From Crossiella sp. CA-258035 (GTDB lineage: Bacteria > Actinomycetota > Actinomycetes > Mycobacteriales > Pseudonocardiaceae), in NCBI RefSeq assembly GCF_030064675.1, contig NZ_CP116413.1, positions 8,089,501-8,153,500 on the forward strand: a DNA stretch of 64,000 nt, read 5' to 3'. The notes under the pieces are model-generated. The model worked only from the letters and a program-made list of their open reading frames with translations, was not told the origin of the DNA and did not search any database. The translations under genes and the position numbers were made by a program. Shown here piece after piece: positions 3,021-22,492 of this stretch (positions are counted from its first letter, which is position 1; each line of letters begins with the position of its first letter).

Positions 3021-3146
3021 GCTGCCTCCCAAAGGTGGTGGCCGATCGACCATGACCGGGGAGGACAGTCTTGCCCGGGTACGGGTAGTCTCGACAACCG
3101 GTCTGTGAGCGAATCCACCGTTCCGGCCATGGCCCCGAGGAGGTGA

Positions 3147-3230
3147 GACGCGATGGGTACAGACAGCAACCCTCCCAGTACCGACCGCGTCCTCGCCGGT
3201 GGGCTCGCTACAACGAGGTAGGACCCATCG
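3147..3230 (+). promoter_or_regulatory. corA: Alternative RNA pairings around the corA leader start codon
   Basis: Two pairings compete for the leader start region. CGATGGGT (3151-3158, containing the leader ATG) is perfectly complementary to ACCCATCG (3223-3230), just after the leader stop. GACGCG (3147-3152) is complementary to CGCGTC (3186-3191) inside the leader. They overlap at 3151-3152, so they exclude each other. A ribosome finishing the leader would cover 3223-3230. This is the layout of an attenuator or translation-coupled switch; the ligand and the readout (Rho access, ribosome access) are not visible. Confidence 0.5.
3153..3221 (+). CDS. Leader peptide upstream of corA, 22 aa
   Basis: ATG 3153 to TAG 3219-3221, preceded by an excellent ribosome site (AGGAGGTGA, 6 nt spacing from its end region). 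The peptide starts MGTDSNPPSTDRVLAGG and has an acidic/polar N-terminus followed by Pro-Pro-Ser. It ends exactly 96 nt before the corA ATG. A second short leader with the same ribosome site, a DPPS core and the same 96-nt distance precedes the ABC-MgtC operon at 21308-21343. Proline-containing leader peptides that sense Mg2+ through ribosome behaviour are known for enterobacterial mgtA/mgtC. This one is inferred by analogy and is not a known family to me. Confidence 0.65.
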   Translation: MGTDSNPPSTDRVLAGGLATTR

Positions 3231-3317
3231 ACCGGTCGGGACGCGCTATCGCGCCGGAGCCCCAGCCAGGTTCTGGCGGCACACCCGTGTTCGCGTCGCG
3301 TTCGACTGGAGCCTTCC

Positions 3318-4400
3318 ATGTCCGTTCTGCCCACGCTCGGCCTGCGCGGCCGTGCTCCTCGTAACGGAAGTGCCATGCCGCAGCAGATCCCGGTGCCGCT
3401 GTCTGCCTACGTGGTGGACTGCGGCGTGTACGTCGACGGCAAGCGCCTGCCCGGTCGCTGGACCCACACCGGCGCGGTGGAGGAGGTCCGCAAGCGCGGC
3501 TCCGGCTTCGTCTGGATCGGCCTGCACGAGCCGGACGAGCAGCAGATCCAGAGCATCGCGGAGACCTTCGGGCTGCACGAGCTGGCGGTGGAGGACGCGG
3601 TGCACGCGCACCAGCGGCCCAAGCTGGAGCGCTACGACGACAGCCTGTTCATGGTGCTCAAGACGGTGCGCTACGTCGCGCACGAGTCGCCGACCACGGC
3701 GAACGAGATCGTGGAGACCGGTGAGGTGATGGTCTTCGTCGGCCGGAACTTCGTGATCACGGTCCGGCACGGCAAGCACCAGGCGCTGGCCGGGCTGCGC
3801 GCCGAGCTGGAGCAGGACGAGGAGAAGCTCGCCCTCGGCCCGGCCGCGGTGCTGCACGCCATCGCCGACCACGTGGTGGACACCTACCTGGACGTGACCA
3901 GCGCGGTCGAGGACGACATCGACACCCTGGAGGTGGAGGTCTTCGACCCGCGCAGCGCGGTGGACCCCGAGCAGATCTACCTGATGAAGCGCGAGGTCAT
4001 GGAGCTGCGCCGGGCGGTGGGCCCGCTGGCCACCCCGCTGCGGCGGCTGGCCGAGGGCTACATCCCGCTGGTGCCGGACGAGGTGCGCACCTTCTTCCGG
4101 GACGTGGACGACCACCTGACGACCGTGCACGACCGGATCATCACCTTCGACGAGATGCTGACCACGCTGATCGACGCGGTGCTGGCCAAGATCACGCTGC
4201 GGCAGAACAACGACATGCGCAAGATCAGCGCCTGGGTGGCCATCATCTCGGTGCCGACGATGATCGCCGGGATCTACGGCATGAACTTCGACATCATGCC
4301 GGAGCTGAAGTGGACCTACGGCTATCCGGTCATCATGTCGGTGATCCTGGTGGCCTGCCTGGTCCTGTACCGCATCTTCCGCCGCAACCAGTGGCTGTGA
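3318..4400 (+). CDS. corA: CorA family magnesium/cobalt transporter
   Basis: 360 aa. It has the large N-terminal cytoplasmic funnel domain, a long helical stalk (residues ~180-290) and two C-terminal transmembrane helices. The signature YGMNFD places the selectivity motif GMN at residues 321-323, followed by an acidic/aromatic loop (IMPELKW) and a basic tail (RIFRRNQWL) as in the pentameric Mg2+ channels. A second ATG at 3375 is possible, since residues 1-20 are not conserved-looking. GGAG lies ~7 nt before ATG 3318. The 5' region carries the leader peptide and pairing described above, which suggests regulation by Mg2+ status. Confidence 0.93.
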   Translation: MSVLPTLGLRGRAPRNGSAMPQQIPVPLSAYVVDCGVYVDGKRLPGRWTHTGAVEEVRKRGSGFVWIGLHEPDEQQIQSIAETFGLHELAVEDAVHAHQRPKLERYDDSLFMVLKTVRYVAHESPTTANEIVETGEVMVFVGRNFVITVRHGKHQALAGLRAELEQDEEKLALGPAAVLHAIADHVVDTYLDVTSAVEDDIDTLEVEVFDPRSAVDPEQIYLMKREVMELRRAVGPLATPLRRLAEGYIPLVPDEVRTFFRDVDDHLTTVHDRIITFDEMLTTLIDAVLAKITLRQNNDMRKISAWVAIISVPTMIAGIYGMNFDIMPELKWTYGYPVIMSVILVACLVLYRIFRRNQWL

Positions 4401-9141: not shown

Positions 9142-10892
9142 ATGAACCACATCGAATTCGCCGTGCCGGCACAGCACGACTTCACCGGGTCGATGCCGCT
9201 CACCGGTTTTCTGCACCGAAACGCCAGCAGCGACCGCCCGGCATTCACCTTCGTCGACTACAACGAGGACCGGGCCGGGATCGCGCACACGCTGACCTGG
9301 CGCGAGCTGGACCAGCGGGCCCGCGCGCTGGCCGCGCAGCTGCGCCAGACCACCGCGCCGGGCGCCAGGGTGGCCATCCTGACCCCGCACGACCTCAACT
9401 ACGTGGTCGCCTTCCTGGGCTGCCTGTACGCGGGCGTGATCGGCGTGCCGCTGTTCGCGCCGGAGGTGAGCCTGCACGGGTCCCGGCTGGTCGGCGCGCT
9501 GGCCGACTGCGATCCCGAGGTGTGGCTGGCCACGGAGAACGCGCTGCCGCAGGTGCGCAAGCTGCTCGACGGCGAGCTGGCGCCCAGCCCCAAGCAGGTG
9601 CTCGCGGTGGACAAGGTGGATCCGTTGGCGGCGGCGGGTTTCCGGCCCGCGCTGGTGTCCATGGACGACCCGGCCTACCTCCAGTACACCTCCGGCTCCA
9701 CCAGGGCGCCCAGCGGCGCGGTGATCACGCACCGGAACCTGGTGGTGAACTCCGCGCAGATCGCCGCCGCCTACGGCATGGACGCCAGTTACACCTGCTC
9801 CGGCTGGATCCCGTTCTTCCACGACATGGGCCTGATGTCGATGCTCGCGGTGCCGGTGCTGCTGGGCGCGCACTCGGTGTTCTGCACCCCGTTCGCCTTC
9901 CTGCAACGGCCGGAGCGCTGGCTGCGCCAGCTGGCCGCGCACCAGAACACGCTGACCGCGGCGCCGAACTTCGCCTATGACTACACGGCCGCGCGCACCA
10001 GTGACGAGTTCAAGTCCACTGTGGACCTGTCCGGCGTCAAGATCATGATCAACGGCAGCGAACCGGTGCGGGCCAAGACGATCGAGCGGTTCAACGCCGC
10101 CTTCGGCCCGGCCGGGCTGGCCCCCGAGGCGCACCGCCCGTCCTACGGCCTGGCCGAGGCCACCGTGTACGTCACCGCCACCGGACCCGCGGGGCCGACC
10201 GTGCTGAGCGTGGACCGGGCCGAGCTCAGCGCGGGCAGGCTCACACCGTCCACTTCGGACACCGCGCTGGAGCTGGTCGGCGCGGGCACCGGCATCGCCT
10301 TGCAGGTCCTGGTGGTCGACCCGGCCACCGGCGCGGCGCTGCCCGAGGGCGCGGTGGGCGAGGTGTGGGTGCACGGGCCGAACGTGGCCGACGGCTACTG
10401 GCAGAAGCCCGAGGAGTCCGCGCAGGACTTCGACGGCCACCTCACCAGCGGCCCGGACTCCGCCCCCGAGCGCGGCTGGCTGCGCACCGGCGACCTGGGC
10501 GCGCTGCACGATGGCGAGCTGTTCATCACCGGCCGGGCCAAGGACCTGATCATCATCGACGGCAAGAACCACTACCCGCAGGACATCGAGGGCACCGTGC
10601 ACGAGGCGCACCCCGCGGTCCGGCGGGACTACGTGGCCGCCTTCGCGCTCACCGAGGGCGCGGAGGAGCGGGTGGTGGTGATCGCCGAGTACTCCCGGCA
10701 CGTGCCGGAGCCGGAGCGGGACCCGGCCGCGGTCGCCCTCGCGGTGCGCCAGGCCGTCTCGGCCCACCACGACCTGCGGCTGGCCGACTTCCGGCTGGTG
10801 CCGCCCGGCAAGGTGCGCCGCACCTCCAGCGGCAAGATCGCCCGCGGCGCGACCAGGGACCAGTACCTCAGCGGGGCATACGGAGAGCTGCT

Positions 10893-10896
<4 letters not shown>
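9142..10896 (+). CDS. Fatty acyl-AMP ligase (FadD32-like FAAL)
   Basis: 584 aa, ATG 9142 with AGGGTGA 8 nt upstream. It is an adenylate-forming enzyme: motif YTSGST at residues 182-187, the IPFFHDMGL segment, NGSEPVR (a hallmark of FAALs rather than acyl-CoA ligases), YGLAEATVYVT, and GWLRTGDLG. A FAAL activates a fatty acid as acyl-AMP and passes it to a carrier protein. The next gene overlaps it (ATGA) and starts with an ACP domain, so the enzyme very likely loads the PKS starter, as FadD32 loads Pks13 in mycobacteria. FadD32-like members take medium to long chains; the length here is unknown. Confidence 0.92.
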
Positions 10897-17410
<6,514 letters not shown>

Positions 17411-17411
<1 letters not shown>

Positions 17412-17507: not shown

Positions 17508-18212
17508 TCAGACTTCCGGGTCGGACTCCACGACCCGCCAGCTGACCGAGCTGATGCCCGGTTCCAGGCTCAGGCGGCTGACCGCGGACTCCAGTTCGGT
17601 GCCCTGCTTGCCCTTGCCGGACAGCCGCGCGGTGACCTCCACCTTGCCGGAGGCGCCCAGGTCCTCGCTTTCCAGGCCCTGCAACACAAATCCGGCCGTG
17701 GTCACCGACTGCACGACCAGCGCGCGGATGTGCGCCTCCTCGGCGTCCCGGCAGACCGCCTTGAAGTCGTACAGGTAGCGCCGGTCGGTCTCGGACTGGG
17801 TGCGGTCGACCTTGCGGGCCAGCGAGCGCAGCACCACGTTGGCCAGCACGATCGCCGCCGCCCCCGCCGCGGCGTGCGGGAACAGCCCGGCGCCGGCCAG
17901 GCAGCCGACGCCCGCCGCGCCCCAGATGGTGGCCGCGGTGTTGATCCCGCGCAGGCTCACCCCATCCCGGATGATCACACCCGCGCCCAGGAAACCGATG
18001 CCGGAGACCACCTGGGCGGCGATCCTGGTCGGGCTGCCCTCGCCCGGGGTGAGCACGCTGAGCAGCACGAACAGCGCCGCCCCTGTGGCCACCAGCGCGT
18101 TGGTGCGCAGCCCGGCCATCCGGGCCCGCCACTGCCGCTCCAGCCCGATCACCGAGCCGAGCACCAGCGCCGAGCCCAGCCGGGCGGCGACCTCCCACCA
18201 CAGCAACGTCAT
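17508..18212 (-). CDS. MgtC/SapB family membrane protein
   Basis: 234 aa. The N-terminal MgtC domain has four to five helices with the family segments GSVIGLERQWRARMAGLRTNALVATGAALF and SGIGFLGAGVIIRDG, followed by GINTAATIWGAAGVG. A C-terminal ACT-like soluble domain (residues ~150-234) follows. MgtC proteins support growth at low Mg2+ by modulating the ATP synthase and phosphate balance in other bacteria. They are not transporters themselves. The ATG overlaps the ABC ATPase stop (ATGA), so it is translationally coupled to that transporter. Confidence 0.9.
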   Translation of the reverse strand: MTLLWWEVAARLGSALVLGSVIGLERQWRARMAGLRTNALVATGAALFVLLSVLTPGEGSPTRIAAQVVSGIGFLGAGVIIRDGVSLRGINTAATIWGAAGVGCLAGAGLFPHAAAGAAAIVLANVVLRSLARKVDRTQSETDRRYLYDFKAVCRDAEEAHIRALVVQSVTTAGFVLQGLESEDLGASGKVEVTARLSGKGKQGTELESAVSRLSLEPGISSVSWRVVESDPEV

Positions 18213-19474
18213 GACCGCTCTCCGTCCGCCAGCACCAGCTCCTGCGCCACCGCGTCGAAGTCGAACAGCTCGCCGTAGCGGCCCCAGTCCACCGCCACGG
18301 CGAGTTGCCGCATCGCCTCCTGTTGGGTGAACCCGCGGCGCAGCAGGTCGAGGAAGAAGGTCTGCCGCAGCCGTCCGGTGCGGCTGGTGCGCAGCGCGTG
18401 CGTGATCATCCCGATCAGCGGCGCGTGCGCCTCGGCCAGCTTGGCGAACTGCCGCTTGCTGGCCGGGATGTCCGCCTCGGCCCACACCTGCCCGTCCAGG
18501 GTCAGGTGCGCGCCCGCCCCGGCCACCTCGACCAGGCCGAGCATCCCGGCCGCGTCCACCAGCGGCATCAGGTCGTCGACCTCGAAGGACAGCTGCGCGG
18601 CCAGCTCGGGCAGCTCGGCCCGGCCGCCACTGCCCGCGACCAGCTCGACCAGGCCAGCCAGGCCGCCGACGGTGGCTTCGGGCAGCGGGCGCATCAGCGG
18701 GGTGCGCGGGTCCGGGACGGTGCGCCCCGCGGCGGAGCCGGTCAGGGCGGTGTAGATCTGGTCCACCACGGCCAGGAACCCCGCCCCGCGCCGATCCCTC
18801 GGCCTGGTCAGCGGCACCGTGATCTCCGCGGTGATCCGGCCGGGGTTCGCGCCCAGCACCAGCACCCGGTCGGCCAGCAGCACGGCCTCCTCGATGTTGT
18901 GCGTGACCACGCAGATCGCCCTGGTCGGGAACTTCGCGCTGCCCCACAGCGCCATCAGCTCGCCGCGCAGGTTCTCCGCGGTGAGCACGTCCAGCGCGGA
19001 GAACGGCTCGTCCATCAGCAGCGCGTCCGGTTCCAGCACCAGCGCGCGGGCGAAGCCGACCCGCTGCCGCATGCCGCCGGAGAGCTCCTTCGGGTAGGCC
19101 CCGGCGAAGCCGTCCAGACCGATCAGGTCGATCATCTCCTCGGCCCGCCGCCGCCGTTCCGCGGGCGCGACCCCGCGCGCCTGCAAGCCGAGCTCCACGT
19201 TCTCCCGCACGGTCAGCCAGGGCAGCAGCGCGAAGCTCTGGAACACCATGGCGGTGCCGGGGTTCGCCCCGCGCAGCGCCTGGCCGCGGTAGCTGACCCG
19301 GCCGCTGCTGGGCTCGACCAGCCCGGCGATGGTGCGCAGCAGCGTCGACTTGCCGGAGCCGGACTTGCCGAGCAGCGCGACCACCTCGCCCGCGCGCAGT
19401 TCCAGGTTGATGTCGGCCAGCACGGGCAGGCCGCTGAAGTTCTTGGAGACGTGCTCCAGTGCCACGATGGTCAT
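18209..19474 (-). CDS. ABC transporter ATPase, NitT/TauT type with C-terminal AAA-associated domain
   Basis: 421 aa. The ABC domain covers residues ~1-260: Walker A GKSGSGKST at 36-44, Q-loop VFQSFALLPW, signature LSGGMRQR, Walker B ALLMDEPF and switch His in VVTHNIEEA. Residues ~270-415 form the AAA-associated C-terminal domain (ELPELAAQLSFEVDDLMPLVDAAGMLGLVE and the FFLDLLRRGFTQQEAMRQL segment), seen in a subgroup annotated as nitrate/sulfonate/bicarbonate transporters. The gene lies between the fused permease and MgtC. No substrate-binding protein is encoded in the operon, so the annotated anion substrates are not supported here. Confidence 0.88.
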   Translation of the reverse strand: MTIVALEHVSKNFSGLPVLADINLELRAGEVVALLGKSGSGKSTLLRTIAGLVEPSSGRVSYRGQALRGANPGTAMVFQSFALLPWLTVRENVELGLQARGVAPAERRRRAEEMIDLIGLDGFAGAYPKELSGGMRQRVGFARALVLEPDALLMDEPFSALDVLTAENLRGELMALWGSAKFPTRAICVVTHNIEEAVLLADRVLVLGANPGRITAEITVPLTRPRDRRGAGFLAVVDQIYTALTGSAAGRTVPDPRTPLMRPLPEATVGGLAGLVELVAGSGGRAELPELAAQLSFEVDDLMPLVDAAGMLGLVEVAGAGAHLTLDGQVWAEADIPASKRQFAKLAEAHAPLIGMITHALRTSRTGRLRQTFFLDLLRRGFTQQEAMRQLAVAVDWGRYGELFDFDAVAQELVLADGERS

Positions 19475-19489
19475 GTCAGCACTCCGTTC

Positions 19490-21211
19490 TCAGAGGTGGT
19501 AGCGGCGCTGGGCGTGCGCCTGGAGCGGCCGCCAGCAGAGCCGGTTGAGGGCGACGACGTAGGCGCTCATGACCACCACGCCGATCAGGATGTGCGGCTG
19601 GTCGCCGCTCTCGGTGGCGGTCTTGATGTAGGCGCCCAGGCCGGTGGCGGTGAGCGTGTCGCCGCCGTAGGAGACGAACTCCGAGACGATCGAGGCGTTC
19701 CACGCGCCGCCGGCCGCGGTCAGCGCACCGGTCACCCAGGCCGGGAACACCGCGGGCAGGATCAGCCGCCGCCAGCGCAGCCAGCCGCGCAGCCGCAGGT
19801 CCGCGGCGGCCTCGCGCAGGTCGGCCGGGATCGCGCTGGCCCCGGCGATCACGTTGAACAGCACGTACCACTGCGCGCCCAGGCTCATCAGCAGGATGCC
19901 GCCCCAGTCCAGGGTGACGCCGGTGCCGATGAGCAGCGCGGTGACGAACGGGAACAGGAAGTTGGTCGGGAAGCTGGCCAGCACCTGCACCACCGGCTGG
20001 GCCAGCCGGGACACCCTCGGGTGCAGTCCGATCCACACCCCGACCGGCACCCACACCAGCGAGGACACCGCCACGATCAGCAGCACCCGGCCGAAGGTGA
20101 CCAGGCCCAGCCAGGCGGCCTCGCCGACATCGGCCCAGCTCGCGGTGCCCGCGAGGTAGCCGACCGCGGACACCGTGCCCCAGCCCAGCAGCGCCAGCAC
20201 CGCGACCAGCAGCGCCGCGTCGCCCAGCCCGCGACGGCCTGGCGAGGCCTGCCAGTGGTCCCTCGGCCTGCCGAAGACCCTGGCCGCCCGGTCCAGCCCC
20301 TCGCCGAGCGGGCGCAGCAGCGTGGCCAGGCGGCGGGGCAGGCTGGAGCGGCGCAGCAGGTCCAGCACCAGGCTGCGCGGCGCGGTGGCCGCCTCCGCCT
20401 CCTCGATCCGGAACCGCTCGGCCCAGGCCGTCAGCGGCCGCCAGAACAGCAGGTTCACCGCCAGCACCAGCAGCACCATGGCGCCGATGGCCAGCAGCAG
20501 CCGGTCGTCCTGGGCGCGTTCGGTGGCCGCGGCCACGTAGCTGCCGATGCCGGGCAGCGCGTAGCTCTGGTTGAGCACGCTGATCGCCTCGGCGGCCACC
20601 ACGAAGAACCAGCCGCCGCCGAAGCTCATCATCCCGTTCCACAGCAGCGGGATCACCGTGCTCGGCGCGTCCAGCTTCCAGAACCGCTGCCACCGGGTCA
20701 GCCGCAGCATGGTCGCCGCTTCACCCAGTTCCCTCGGCTGCGCGCGCAATGCCTGGTACCAGGCGAAGGTCATGTTCCACGCCTGCGAGGTGAAGATGGC
20801 GAATACCGACGCGCATTCCACCCCGAGCGTGGAACCCGGGAAAAGCGCGATGAATCCGGTGACCGTGACGGAGAGGAAACCCAGGATCGGCACCGACTGG
20901 AGAATGTCCAGTGCGGGCAGGATGATCTTTTCCGCGCGCCGGGACCGGGCCGCCAGCGTGCCCACCGCCATGGTGAAGACCAGGGAGAGCGCGAACGCGG
21001 CGAACATGCGCAGCAGCGTGCGGCCCGCGTAGTAGGGCAGCACCGAGGGATCGGTGCTGATCTGGTCCAGGGAATGGTCCGCGGGCAGCGGCGCGATGGC
21101 ACCCGCGCCGAGGCGGATGGCCAGGTAGAGCAGCAGGCCGACGCCCAGCGCGACGGCGGCGTCGGTCAGCACGGCGCGACGGCGTGCGGGCACGCCAAGG
21201 ACAGCGAACAT
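19490..21211 (-). CDS. ABC transporter permease, fused tandem BPD_transp_1 domains
   Basis: 573 aa with two permease halves in one chain. Half 1 (~55-265) carries the EAA-like loop ELGEAATMLRLTRWQRFWKLDAPS. Half 2 (~345-560) carries DLREAAADLRLRGWLRWRRLILPAVFPA. Each half has about five to six helices. The two halves substitute for a permease dimer. It is followed by the ATPase after 15 nt. Its 5' region contains a translated 11-aa leader and hairpin, and the operon ends with mgtC. That context points to divalent-cation uptake rather than nitrate or sulfonate (inference). Confidence 0.87.
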   Translation of the reverse strand: MFAVLGVPARRRAVLTDAAVALGVGLLLYLAIRLGAGAIAPLPADHSLDQISTDPSVLPYYAGRTLLRMFAAFALSLVFTMAVGTLAARSRRAEKIILPALDILQSVPILGFLSVTVTGFIALFPGSTLGVECASVFAIFTSQAWNMTFAWYQALRAQPRELGEAATMLRLTRWQRFWKLDAPSTVIPLLWNGMMSFGGGWFFVVAAEAISVLNQSYALPGIGSYVAAATERAQDDRLLLAIGAMVLLVLAVNLLFWRPLTAWAERFRIEEAEAATAPRSLVLDLLRRSSLPRRLATLLRPLGEGLDRAARVFGRPRDHWQASPGRRGLGDAALLVAVLALLGWGTVSAVGYLAGTASWADVGEAAWLGLVTFGRVLLIVAVSSLVWVPVGVWIGLHPRVSRLAQPVVQVLASFPTNFLFPFVTALLIGTGVTLDWGGILLMSLGAQWYVLFNVIAGASAIPADLREAAADLRLRGWLRWRRLILPAVFPAWVTGALTAAGGAWNASIVSEFVSYGGDTLTATGLGAYIKTATESGDQPHILIGVVVMSAYVVALNRLCWRPLQAHAQRRYHL

Positions 21212-21307
21212 GACGGGATCCGAACTGTGCGAATGCCGGAAAAAGGGCAGCAGAAGTCACCGGCTACGCCAGCTCAGGGCGCACCGGGAAATGAGGAAAG
21301 AAAGGAG

Positions 21308-21343
21308 TCAGAGACGACTACTAGGAGGATCACCGAGAGTCAT
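21308..21343 (-). CDS. Leader peptide upstream of the ABC-MgtC operon, 11 aa (MTLGDPPSSRL)
   Basis: ATG 21343-21341 to TGA 21310-21308. The ribosome site AGGAGGTGA (21358-21350) is as strong as that of the corA leader. The peptide MTLGDPPSSRL has the core Asp-Pro-Pro-Ser; the corA leader has Asn-Pro-Pro-Ser. The stop lies exactly 96 nt before the permease ATG, again as at corA. The Pro codons are CCT CCT, unusual in this very GC-rich genome, and they form the anti-Shine-Dalgarno arm of the hairpin described separately. Function is inferred. Confidence 0.65.
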   Translation of the reverse strand: MTLGDPPSSRL

Positions 21344-21361
21344 GGGCGATCACCTCCTAGT
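21320..21361 (-). promoter_or_regulatory. Hairpin pairing the leader ribosome site with its Pro-Pro codons
   Basis: ACTAGGAGG (21361-21353 on the minus strand) and CCTCCTAGT (21328-21320) are perfect 9-bp complements separated by 24 nt that include the start codon. In the RNA this hides the leader's ribosome site. Translating ribosomes would melt it, and a ribosome stalled on the two Pro codons would hold it open. The arrangement ties translation of the leader to the fate of the downstream operon. Confidence 0.55.
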
Positions 21362-21406
21362 GCGCGAAATCAAGCAAACCTTCAGCAGGCTAGCAGCGAT
21401 TCCGGA

Positions 21407-22492
21407 TCAGCTCCAGCGTTGTTCGTCCCATGTGAACGGGATCCCATGTCCGGAGCCACTGCCCAGGTGCAGCGAAATTCCGGCAGGCCACAACCGGAGC
21501 AGCAGGTCGAAGCGGAACAAACCGCCCACCCGTTCCCTGGGCTCGTAGACCAGCAGCGCCAGCGGGCTCTCCTCGGTGGCGCGGGCGGCCGCGTCGGCCA
21601 GCACGGTGCGGCCCTGCGCGCGCTGCGCGGGCGAGACGTACTGCCAGACCACCGAGTGCCAGACCACGGTGAGCACGCCCGGCCGCGGCTGGGCCAGCTG
21701 CCGCCGCAGCCACTCCGGCCCGGCGGCGCGCTCCACCTTCACCGGGTCGTCCACGGCCAGCCGCATGGCCCGCTGCAACCGGCGCCAGCGGTCCAGCTGG
21801 TCCGGCCAGATGAAGGAGGACAGCTGCCGCTGCCCGTCCAAAGTGGACACGTCCACCGGGTTGAGGTCGCAGCCCGCGCGCTCCACCAGCGCCAGCGGCA
21901 GGTCCAGGTCGACCGGCGGCAGGCCGGTCCACTCCGGGTCGAGCTGCAGGCGGCTGCGCTTGTCACCGAGCACCCGGCCGTCGGCCAGCCGGTAGCCGAC
22001 CCGGTGCGGGCGCAGGTTCAGCCCGCCGCTCGCGCCGATCTCCAGCAGCCGGACCGGATAGGGCTCGGCCCGGTCGACCGCGGCGGCGGCCCGGCTCGCG
22101 GCCACCAGCAGCCCGCCGTAGAGCGGGGCGGTGCGGCCGGGCTCATTGGTCTGCACGACCGTGGAGCGCACCAGCGCGCGCAGCTCGTCGGCGTGCTCGG
22201 CGAGCACCGGCTCGGCGTCCGACCAGAGCTTGCCCAGGTCGGTGGCGCCGCCGACGCTCGGGTAGTGCTTGGCCAGGCTGGGGGCCTTGCCCTCCAGCAC
22301 CAGCCGATGCAGTGAGCCTGCGAAACGCAGACCGGGCACGGTTCCGCGGCGGTCCCGCTCGGATCCGGCCATCACCGACGCCGTGACGCCACCGGCGGCC
22401 AGGTCCTCGGCCGCGGCGGTCAACAGGGCGTGGTTGAGCGGACTCCGCTGGCGGCAACCACGGGCGGCATCCTGGAACAGCTCCACGAGCAC
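21407..22492 (-). CDS. DUF2332 family protein (second copy)
   Basis: 361 aa, GTG start with TAGCCT (-10-like) 7 nt upstream at 22500-22505, so probably leaderless. It shares the DUF2332 layout with the protein at 1420-2511: YPSVGGATDLGKLW, RLLEIGASGGLNLRPHRVGYR (a GxGxxG-like loop), DLNPVDVSTLDGQRQLSSFIWPDQLDRWRRL, and a late VVWHSVVWQYV stretch. The identity to the first copy looks low, so they are ancient paralogues. Function is unknown. Confidence 0.8.
   Translation of the reverse strand: MLVELFQDAARGCRQRSPLNHALLTAAAEDLAAGGVTASVMAGSERDRRGTVPGLRFAGSLHRLVLEGKAPSLAKHYPSVGGATDLGKLWSDAEPVLAEHADELRALVRSTVVQTNEPGRTAPLYGGLLVAASRAAAAVDRAEPYPVRLLEIGASGGLNLRPHRVGYRLADGRVLGDKRSRLQLDPEWTGLPPVDLDLPLALVERAGCDLNPVDVSTLDGQRQLSSFIWPDQLDRWRRLQRAMRLAVDDPVKVERAAGPEWLRRQLAQPRPGVLTVVWHSVVWQYVSPAQRAQGRTVLADAAARATEESPLALLVYEPRERVGGLFRFDLLLRLWPAGISLHLGSGSGHGIPFTWDEQRWS

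Follow-up and report, generated by a model that had tools for sequence, protein, structure and literature searches.

The window analysed here, 64,000 nucleotides (nt) of Crossiella sp. CA-258035 (NZ_CP116413.1, positions 8,089,501–8,153,500), carries on its minus strand an operon encoding an ATP-binding cassette (ABC) permease, its ATPase and an MgtC/SapB family protein (Table 1). The operon is preceded by a short open reading frame (ORF), MTLGDPPSSRL, referred to below as the ABC leader, which begins with an ATG at 21343 and whose stop codon ends at 21308; the ATG of the permease (21211) follows after 96 nt. A second short ORF, MGTDSNPPSTDRVLAGGLATTR, lies 18 kb away on the opposite strand, 96 nt upstream of corA (3318). 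An earlier note on this DNA had credited the two with the same Shine–Dalgarno (SD) sequence, the same xPPS core and the same spacing, and all three likenesses were confirmed; the AGT serine codons are shared as well. The ABC leader combines a short ORF of 11 codons and an extended SD, with an 11-nt match to what we take to be the anti-SD at the 16S 3′ end, with a core, GDPPSS with AGT AGT, that supplies the acidic residue and the Pro/Ser residues typical of the family described below. A pattern of SD, ATG and CCTCCTAG with up to three mismatches occurs once in the window, compared with a mean of 0.00 in 100 shuffles. We propose, with a probability of roughly 0.6, that MTLGDPPSSRL is a cis-acting leader peptide belonging to an actinobacterial family found upstream of Mg2+-uptake genes, and that it would act as a Mg2+-responsive attenuator in the manner of MgtL and CorL. 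Judged from sequence, the family precedes corA, mgtA-type ATPases, mgtC, mgtE, NRAMP and the ABC operon, and is also found behind M-box riboswitches.

Three models were used in the searches: R1, a sequence-only model built from 40 leaders including both window leaders; R2, from 16 M-box leaders only; and R3, from 17 corA leaders without Crossiella. The ABC leader, itself a training row of R1, scores 25.9 bits with this model (E 4.9e-7 in the window). In the complete genome (9.17 Mb) R1 ranks the corA leader (1.3e-6) and the ABC leader (7e-5) ahead of a next match at 0.029. This genome contains one CorA and one MgtC, its P-type ATPases match MgtA only partially (∼30–44% identity, 31% for the best match), and searches of it for MgtE and NRAMP gave no match to either; the two window leaders appear to stand before nearly all of its recognisable Mg2+-uptake genes. 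Across 20 genomes R1 gave 21 matches at E ≤ 1e-3, comprising nine before corA, five before the ABC operon, two before P-type ATPases, one before mgtC (MSLADPPSSPR) and four behind M-boxes; 12 of these lie outside the training rows, some being close kin of them. Scatter over unrelated genes had been named beforehand as the outcome that would count against one regulatory class common to corA and the ABC–MgtC operon, and with all 21 matches at Mg2+-type genes or behind an M-box the proposal of such a class is supported. Among 296 genomes of the class, 48 matches were obtained at E ≤ 0.003. M-boxes precede 23 of them, seven without an M-box lie before corA, ABC, mgtC or P-type ATPase genes, one precedes a DUF1003 gene, two precede a 60-residue membrane protein and two are mycobacteria-like with neither. 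The best 23 of the 48 (E ≤ 8.8e-5) include 17 behind M-boxes, four before corA, ABC or mgtC and the two mycobacteria-like leaders with neither. Downstream genes were assigned by Pfam, except for CorA at loci L139, L175 and L179 and NRAMP at L141, which were assigned by sequence resemblance.

Full-length homologues of the permease were found in 16 of 150 genomes of the family. The five from the genus carry MTLGDPPSSRL/F, three others have MTLGDPPSSCR (G010), MSLNPCDPPSSRRG (G068) and MTGDGSSPRSAATRVQFT (G057), and in the remaining eight mgtA and/or mgtC come before the permease and the leader sits ahead of them, with MTG[DE]xSS or MIGEGSS before mgtA in seven and MPDDSPDLTG... in the eighth. 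Leaders of the DPPSS type were likewise seen ahead of this permease in Dactylosporangium sucinum, in a Micromonosporaceae metagenome-assembled genome (MAG) and in Streptomyces celluloflavus; those of Bifidobacterium and Gardnerella are of a looser form. Among 80 related permease loci a model match at E ≤ 0.5 was present in 14, in 12 of these upstream of the operon; there was none at this threshold among 37 permease loci with titles naming other phyla. Both mgtC and mgtA accompany the pair formed by the permease and the AAA_assoc_C ATPase (17508–21211 in the window, and its relatives). An M-box is found immediately upstream of the ABC operon in genome G216 and upstream of it in Nocardia seriolae (L205); in Streptomyces orinoci (L210) one flanks the operon, on the other strand and downstream. 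The gene behind the ABC leader can be counted as Mg2+-type because MgtC is part of the operon, the permease follows an M-box in G216 and it follows mgtA in relatives; the permease/AAA_assoc_C-ATPase system is thus a candidate Mg2+ ABC importer. As a side observation, a leader-like match (E 0.19) at G034:C1:5319939-5320641 precedes an apparent remnant of the ABC permease with an internal stop.

The leaders are also linked to the M-box. Of 32 M-box loci, seven of which were training loci, 25 show an R1 match directly behind the aptamer (E ≤ 0.1), and the remaining seven also have a short ORF behind an SD at this place. The genes that follow encode CorA, MgtE and NRAMP and, in G216, the ABC permease. 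Proline is residue 7 in 21 of 29 M-box leaders and in both window leaders (MTLGDPPSS and MGTDSNPPS). R2, trained on M-box leaders, matches 16 of 30 corA loci and seven of eight other non-mycobacterial leaders, and R3 in turn matches 13 of the 32 M-box loci. The window itself gave no Rfam match at gathering scores, and the region 21100–22100 gave none at E ≤ 5; an M-box explanation was therefore rejected for the window loci.

Upstream of corA a leader-like ORF is present in 28 of 30 fetched loci of the family (for example MSSGDSPLPSST, MSNDPHPAST and MSSSDSALPCST), and a 29th is degenerate. The distance from leader to gene ranges from 68 to 141 nt at these loci and the ABC leader of G010 stops ∼258 nt short of the aligned portion of the permease, so that the 96-nt spacing, which had been put forward as part of the shared design, was rejected as a feature of the class. 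A hairpin (GCGTCCC/GGGACGC) overlaps the leader, its 5′ arm lying within the ORF ∼6 nt past the AGT codon. Across the 26 leaders of the alignment (A1, 26 of 30 loci) 95.2% of the cells are paired, a percentage that favours the hairpin since the 3′ ends were trimmed at the arm found by script, in two cases by hand; slid controls reached at most 67.9%. Five of the eight pairs show double changes, and the covariation score was reached in none of 500 shuffles. As the 5′ arm is coding, the position of the ribosome would decide whether the hairpin can form. A separate block near AACCGGTNTGTGAGCGAATCCACCG recurs within the family 5′ of the SD of many corA leaders (L039–L068) and is possibly a promoter or a further RNA element.

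A catalogue of 81 leaders was picked by hand, from which L046 and L067 (corA), L031 (mgtA region), L004 (a near-duplicate) and the M-box loci L080, L082 and L087 (no start accepted by the filters) were dropped. In the first 12 codons of the 81 leaders AGT accounts for 167 of 270 serine codons (62%), compared with 4 of 288 in corA genes and 3 of 98 in genes behind M-boxes. AGT was a requirement of the filter that supplied the ABC rows L213 and L265, and about five ABC rows came from R1; in rows not selected on AGT the share is 63 of 110 for the 28 corA rows and 57 of 101 for the 29 M-box rows. AGT occurs in 78 of the 81 leaders, an acidic residue at positions 2–9 in 73 and proline at positions 2–12 in 72, although proline is missing from seven of ten mgtA leaders. 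Conservation falls mostly on residues 2–11. The preference for one rare codon means that selection on the peptide alone is insufficient as an explanation.

Table 1. Features at the two leader loci of the window (positions within the 64,000-nt stretch).
Feature	Position	Strand	Remarks
SD AGGAGGTGA of corA leader	3138..3146	+	
corA leader ORF MGTDSNPPSTDRVLAGGLATTR	3153..3221	+	Matched by R3: 27.2 bits, E 2.6e-7
corA leader hairpin	3186..3245	+	Arms CGCGTCCT (3186-3193) and GGGACGCG (3238-3245); covariation in 26 corA leaders
corA (PF01544)	3318..4400	+	Single CorA match of the genome at E ≤ 0.001
MgtC/SapB family protein (PF02308 + PF21770)	17508..18218	-	Sole MgtC of the genome
ABC ATPase with C-terminal AAA-associated domain (PF09821)	18209..19474	-	
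ABC permease, two BPD_transp_1 domains	19490..21211	-	Start codon uncertain, no SD before the ATG
G-free pyrimidine-rich tract, 23 nt	21286..21308	-	Starts at the leader stop; candidate Rho loading site
Leader ORF MTLGDPPSSRL	21308..21343	-	11 codons: ATG ACT CTC GGT GAT CCT CCT AGT AGT CGT CTC TGA
Predicted hairpin pairing the SD with the Gly-Asp-Pro-Pro-Ser codons	21320..21361	-	Arms 21361-21345 and 21334-21320; 15 pairs, 2-nt bulge
Extended SD AGGAGGTGATC	21348..21358	-	11-nt match to the presumed anti-SD (16S 3′ end)

The closest named relative of the permease is from Crossiella sp. SN42 (98% identity). Inspection by eye indicated a large modular polyketide-synthase-like gene (10365–17411) adjoining the ABC–MgtC operon on the opposite strand, and a TAGCCT hexamer upstream of the ABC leader SD that is kept in the genus and in L015; the hexamer could be a −10 box, yet the promoter scan reported below was empty. 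Some leaders precede genes of other kinds. At L183 (1301-777) a DUF1003 protein follows the leader MSPCHSSRPPALVHQRSH, which hints at a role of DUF1003 in Mg2+ handling. In four genomes of one genus (L278, L280, L290 and L291) the leader is followed by a membrane protein of 60 residues (MTITI.VPF..LPQ), with an M-box upstream in two of them; the L280 protein has no Pfam match, and this may be a new small Mg2+-linked protein. The mycobacteria-like leaders MSPSDGPYPSS and MSSSDGPHPYPCST at L284 and L285 have no M-box call, and a small ORF near one of them resembles an ORF that also precedes NRAMP in L088.

By analogy, the family could work as follows. A ribosome recruited by the extended SD would translate a short core made of an acidic residue, proline and/or Ser-Ser with the rare AGT codon, and, on the model of MgtL (PMC11282234) and CorL (PMC11552253), this D-P/S(AGT) core would be the Mg2+-sensitive step. 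With ample Mg2+ the ribosome would pass the core, exposing the RNA that follows the leader to premature termination, for which Rho is the most likely agent; the features in question are the G-free tract at the stop of the ABC leader, which is the longest G-free run of the window on either strand, and, at corA, the covarying hairpin that overlaps the leader. At low Mg2+ the ribosome would stall or fall off at the core, another RNA fold would form and the transporter genes would be transcribed. The SD hairpin of DPPSS-type leaders may provide a further level of control, acting on the frequency of leader translation. The ribosome itself would thus probably act as the magnesium gauge. The sequences themselves show the leader, its repeated occurrence at Mg2+ genes and downstream of M-boxes, the bias towards AGT and the hairpin at corA, whereas translation in Crossiella, dependence on Mg2+, stalling or drop-off and a part for Rho are inferred.

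A different switch was suggested by the earlier note, which held that the ribosome site is hidden by the leader's own Pro-Pro codons and regarded this as common to the class. The proline codons do lie in the arm complementary to the SD, and the predicted hairpin, with its 15 pairs, is larger than the 9 bp stated there. If its opening by the ribosome, an ion or temperature were the regulated event, the peptide would matter only as RNA; this is an unlikely account. The SD is predicted to be occluded in nine of 12 ABC-type leaders, four of them from Crossiella, and a test of the duplex alone finds the Crossiella pairing stronger than 99–100% of synonymous recodings (fractions 0.00–0.01), Crossiella alone being exceptional. 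However, only five of 19 corA leaders and none of the nine mgtA and eight M-box leaders that were folded are occluded. When recodings are compared by folding, no ABC-type leader lies beyond 95% of them (fractions 0.06–0.72, median 0.29), Crossiella is ordinary (0.29 and 0.49) and the SD of M-box leaders is rather kept open (median 0.92). The 163-nt stretch containing the ABC leader hairpin has a folding z of −1.96, with six of 200 shuffles equally good. Since CCN CCN faces GGAGG, occlusion follows largely from the Pro-Pro codons alone. The MAFFT alignment of this hairpin in DPPSS leaders misplaced L218, so covariation was not counted on it; by eye, one compensatory change from A-T to G-C was seen in L007 and an A-C mismatch breaks the pairing in L015 and L165. 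Hiding of the SD is therefore predicted for most DPPSS-type leaders and was rejected as a class feature, and the supposed common design does not extend to it, the corA leader SD being mostly open (unpaired probability 0.57). Alternatively, the ORFs may encode small proteins acting in trans, modulating or joining a transporter complex, as has been proposed for Rv1805A. In favour are the conservation and high expression of the mycobacterial peptides (PMC12810186) and the two mycobacteria-like leaders noted above, which have neither an M-box nor a recognised Mg2+ gene nearby, but conservation confined mostly to residues 2–11 and to codon choice, the overlap of the second half of the corA leader with a covarying hairpin and the recurrence of one core before proteins without a common fold make this improbable as well. 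A sensor at the level of codons, in which AGT (read by tRNA-Ser wobble) or proline codons slow the ribosome and the peptide is irrelevant, fits the prevalence of AGT and proline in the catalogue. At proline codons, Mg2+ dependence could enter through tRNA modification (m1G37, made by TrmD). The acidic residue would be left unexplained and the mgtA leaders largely lack proline, so that we regard a purely codon-based mechanism as doubtful.

Several results weigh against placing the ABC leader in an Mg2+-responsive family that is widespread in Actinobacteria. Outside the family of Crossiella the corA leader was found in only six of 40 fetched loci (filter: AGT or PP/SS/DSP). A genuine R1 match at E ≤ 0.003 occurs in only ∼20 of the 296 class genomes, which makes either the leader family patchy or the model weak. 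Non-leaders account for 13 of the 48 matches, all of them at E 1.2e-4 or worse; the 11 inspected are for the most part chance matches or the starts of ordinary genes. R2 matches none of six ABC-type loci and neither window leader, several of its matches span little beyond the SD, and the R3 search gave no match to the ABC leader. The G-free tract is retained at five of the nine ABC loci (the four genus loci compared and L015, 21–23 nt) and missing in L007, L213, L216 and L218, and a scan of 21180–21480 for an intrinsic terminator and a sigma-70 promoter gave no match to either. The weakest link is the relationship of the ABC leader to the corA and M-box types, for which the only non-circular support comes from a hidden Markov model (HMM) built without the four DPPSS rows: with this model the ABC leader comes second in the 64-kb window (14.7 bits, E 0.0014), ahead of a third match at 6.2 bits. 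On these comparisons the corA leaders have firm ties to those behind M-boxes, because R2 and R3 cross-match each other's type, and the ABC leader has looser ones, being reached only by the leave-out model. The misses of R2 and R3 would be expected if the DPPSS leader were a separate look-alike that had converged on the same form. This is a possibility that we take seriously, although we hold it to be rather unlikely in view of the leave-out result, of corA leaders such as MSSGDPSSTCS and MSPGDPCSTAEV that bridge to the ABC leaders MTLGDPPSSR and MLYGDPPSC, and of the restriction of both types in the Crossiella genome to Mg2+-type genes. That the ABC leader is a chance ORF behind a strong SD, as the ordinary gene starts with strong SDs among the R1 matches might suggest, is highly improbable given its retention before the same permease in all five genus genomes, in two further genera and in Dactylosporangium, the Micromonosporaceae MAG and S. 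celluloflavus.

The nearest known counterparts are the second upstream ORFs (uORF2) of mycobacterial M-boxes (Rv1805A, Rv1535 uORF2 and Rv0115A), which are likewise short, AGT-rich ORFs with a strong SD and a conserved N-terminus with Pro 7, linked to Mg2+ genes. They are reported to be translated in reporter fusions and highly expressed, with SD, N-terminus and Pro 7 conserved (PMC12810186). That paper describes the Mycobacterium tuberculosis M-box as a translational platform combined with Rho-dependent termination, calls the uORF2 peptide mycobacteria-specific and gives its function as not known. Ribosome profiling in M. abscessus showed protected uORFs before mgtC and mgtE, the latter coinciding with the M-box, and the same study relates mycobacterial uORF2 to VcgB of Rhodococcus equi (PMC4974804). 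Our mycobacteria-like M-box leaders fit uORF2/Rv1805A, the comparison being with the description in the paper rather than with peptide letters (PMC12810186). The class had been called undescribed; this holds for the wider family, of which no description was found in the open-licence full-text literature, and not for the mycobacterial M-box version. Unlike uORF2, neither window locus has an M-box, and the M-box-only model misses both window leaders. The M-box riboswitch (RF00380) has the same kinds of gene downstream and often lies directly before such leaders.

The enterobacterial leaders MgtL, CorL and MgtP/MgtM are short ORFs before mgtA, corA and mgtCBR whose acidic and proline codons make translation Mg2+-sensitive, with Rho deciding the outcome (PMC11282234 and PMC11552253). 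In MgtL the EPDP motif causes ribosome drop-off at low Mg2+, thereby blocking Rho (PMC11282234). They belong to another phylum, have another core sequence and lack the AGT bias of the actinobacterial side; the likeness is one of features, the residues being too few for a test of homology. MgtQ, an ORF of eight residues between mgtC and mgtB of Salmonella, has acidic codons that free the ribosome site of an Mg2+ transporter (PMC8092293), but it is intergenic and acts on the site of the next gene, whereas in Crossiella the occluded site is the leader's own.

Mg2+ leader peptides have so far been known mainly from enterobacteria, and an actinobacterial family would widen the principle of the ribosome as Mg2+ sensor. 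It would also assign a cis-acting role to mycobacterial peptides without known function, and the leader singles out a so far uncharacterised ABC system as a candidate for Mg2+ import. More tentatively, and with the odds in our view against it, one old leader family may serve Actinobacteria as their common Mg2+ gauge, occurring alone or downstream of an M-box ahead of six or more unrelated uptake systems and sensing through slow wobble reading of AGT beside an acidic/proline core. If so, Rv1805A and VcgB would be regulatory leaders rather than effector peptides.
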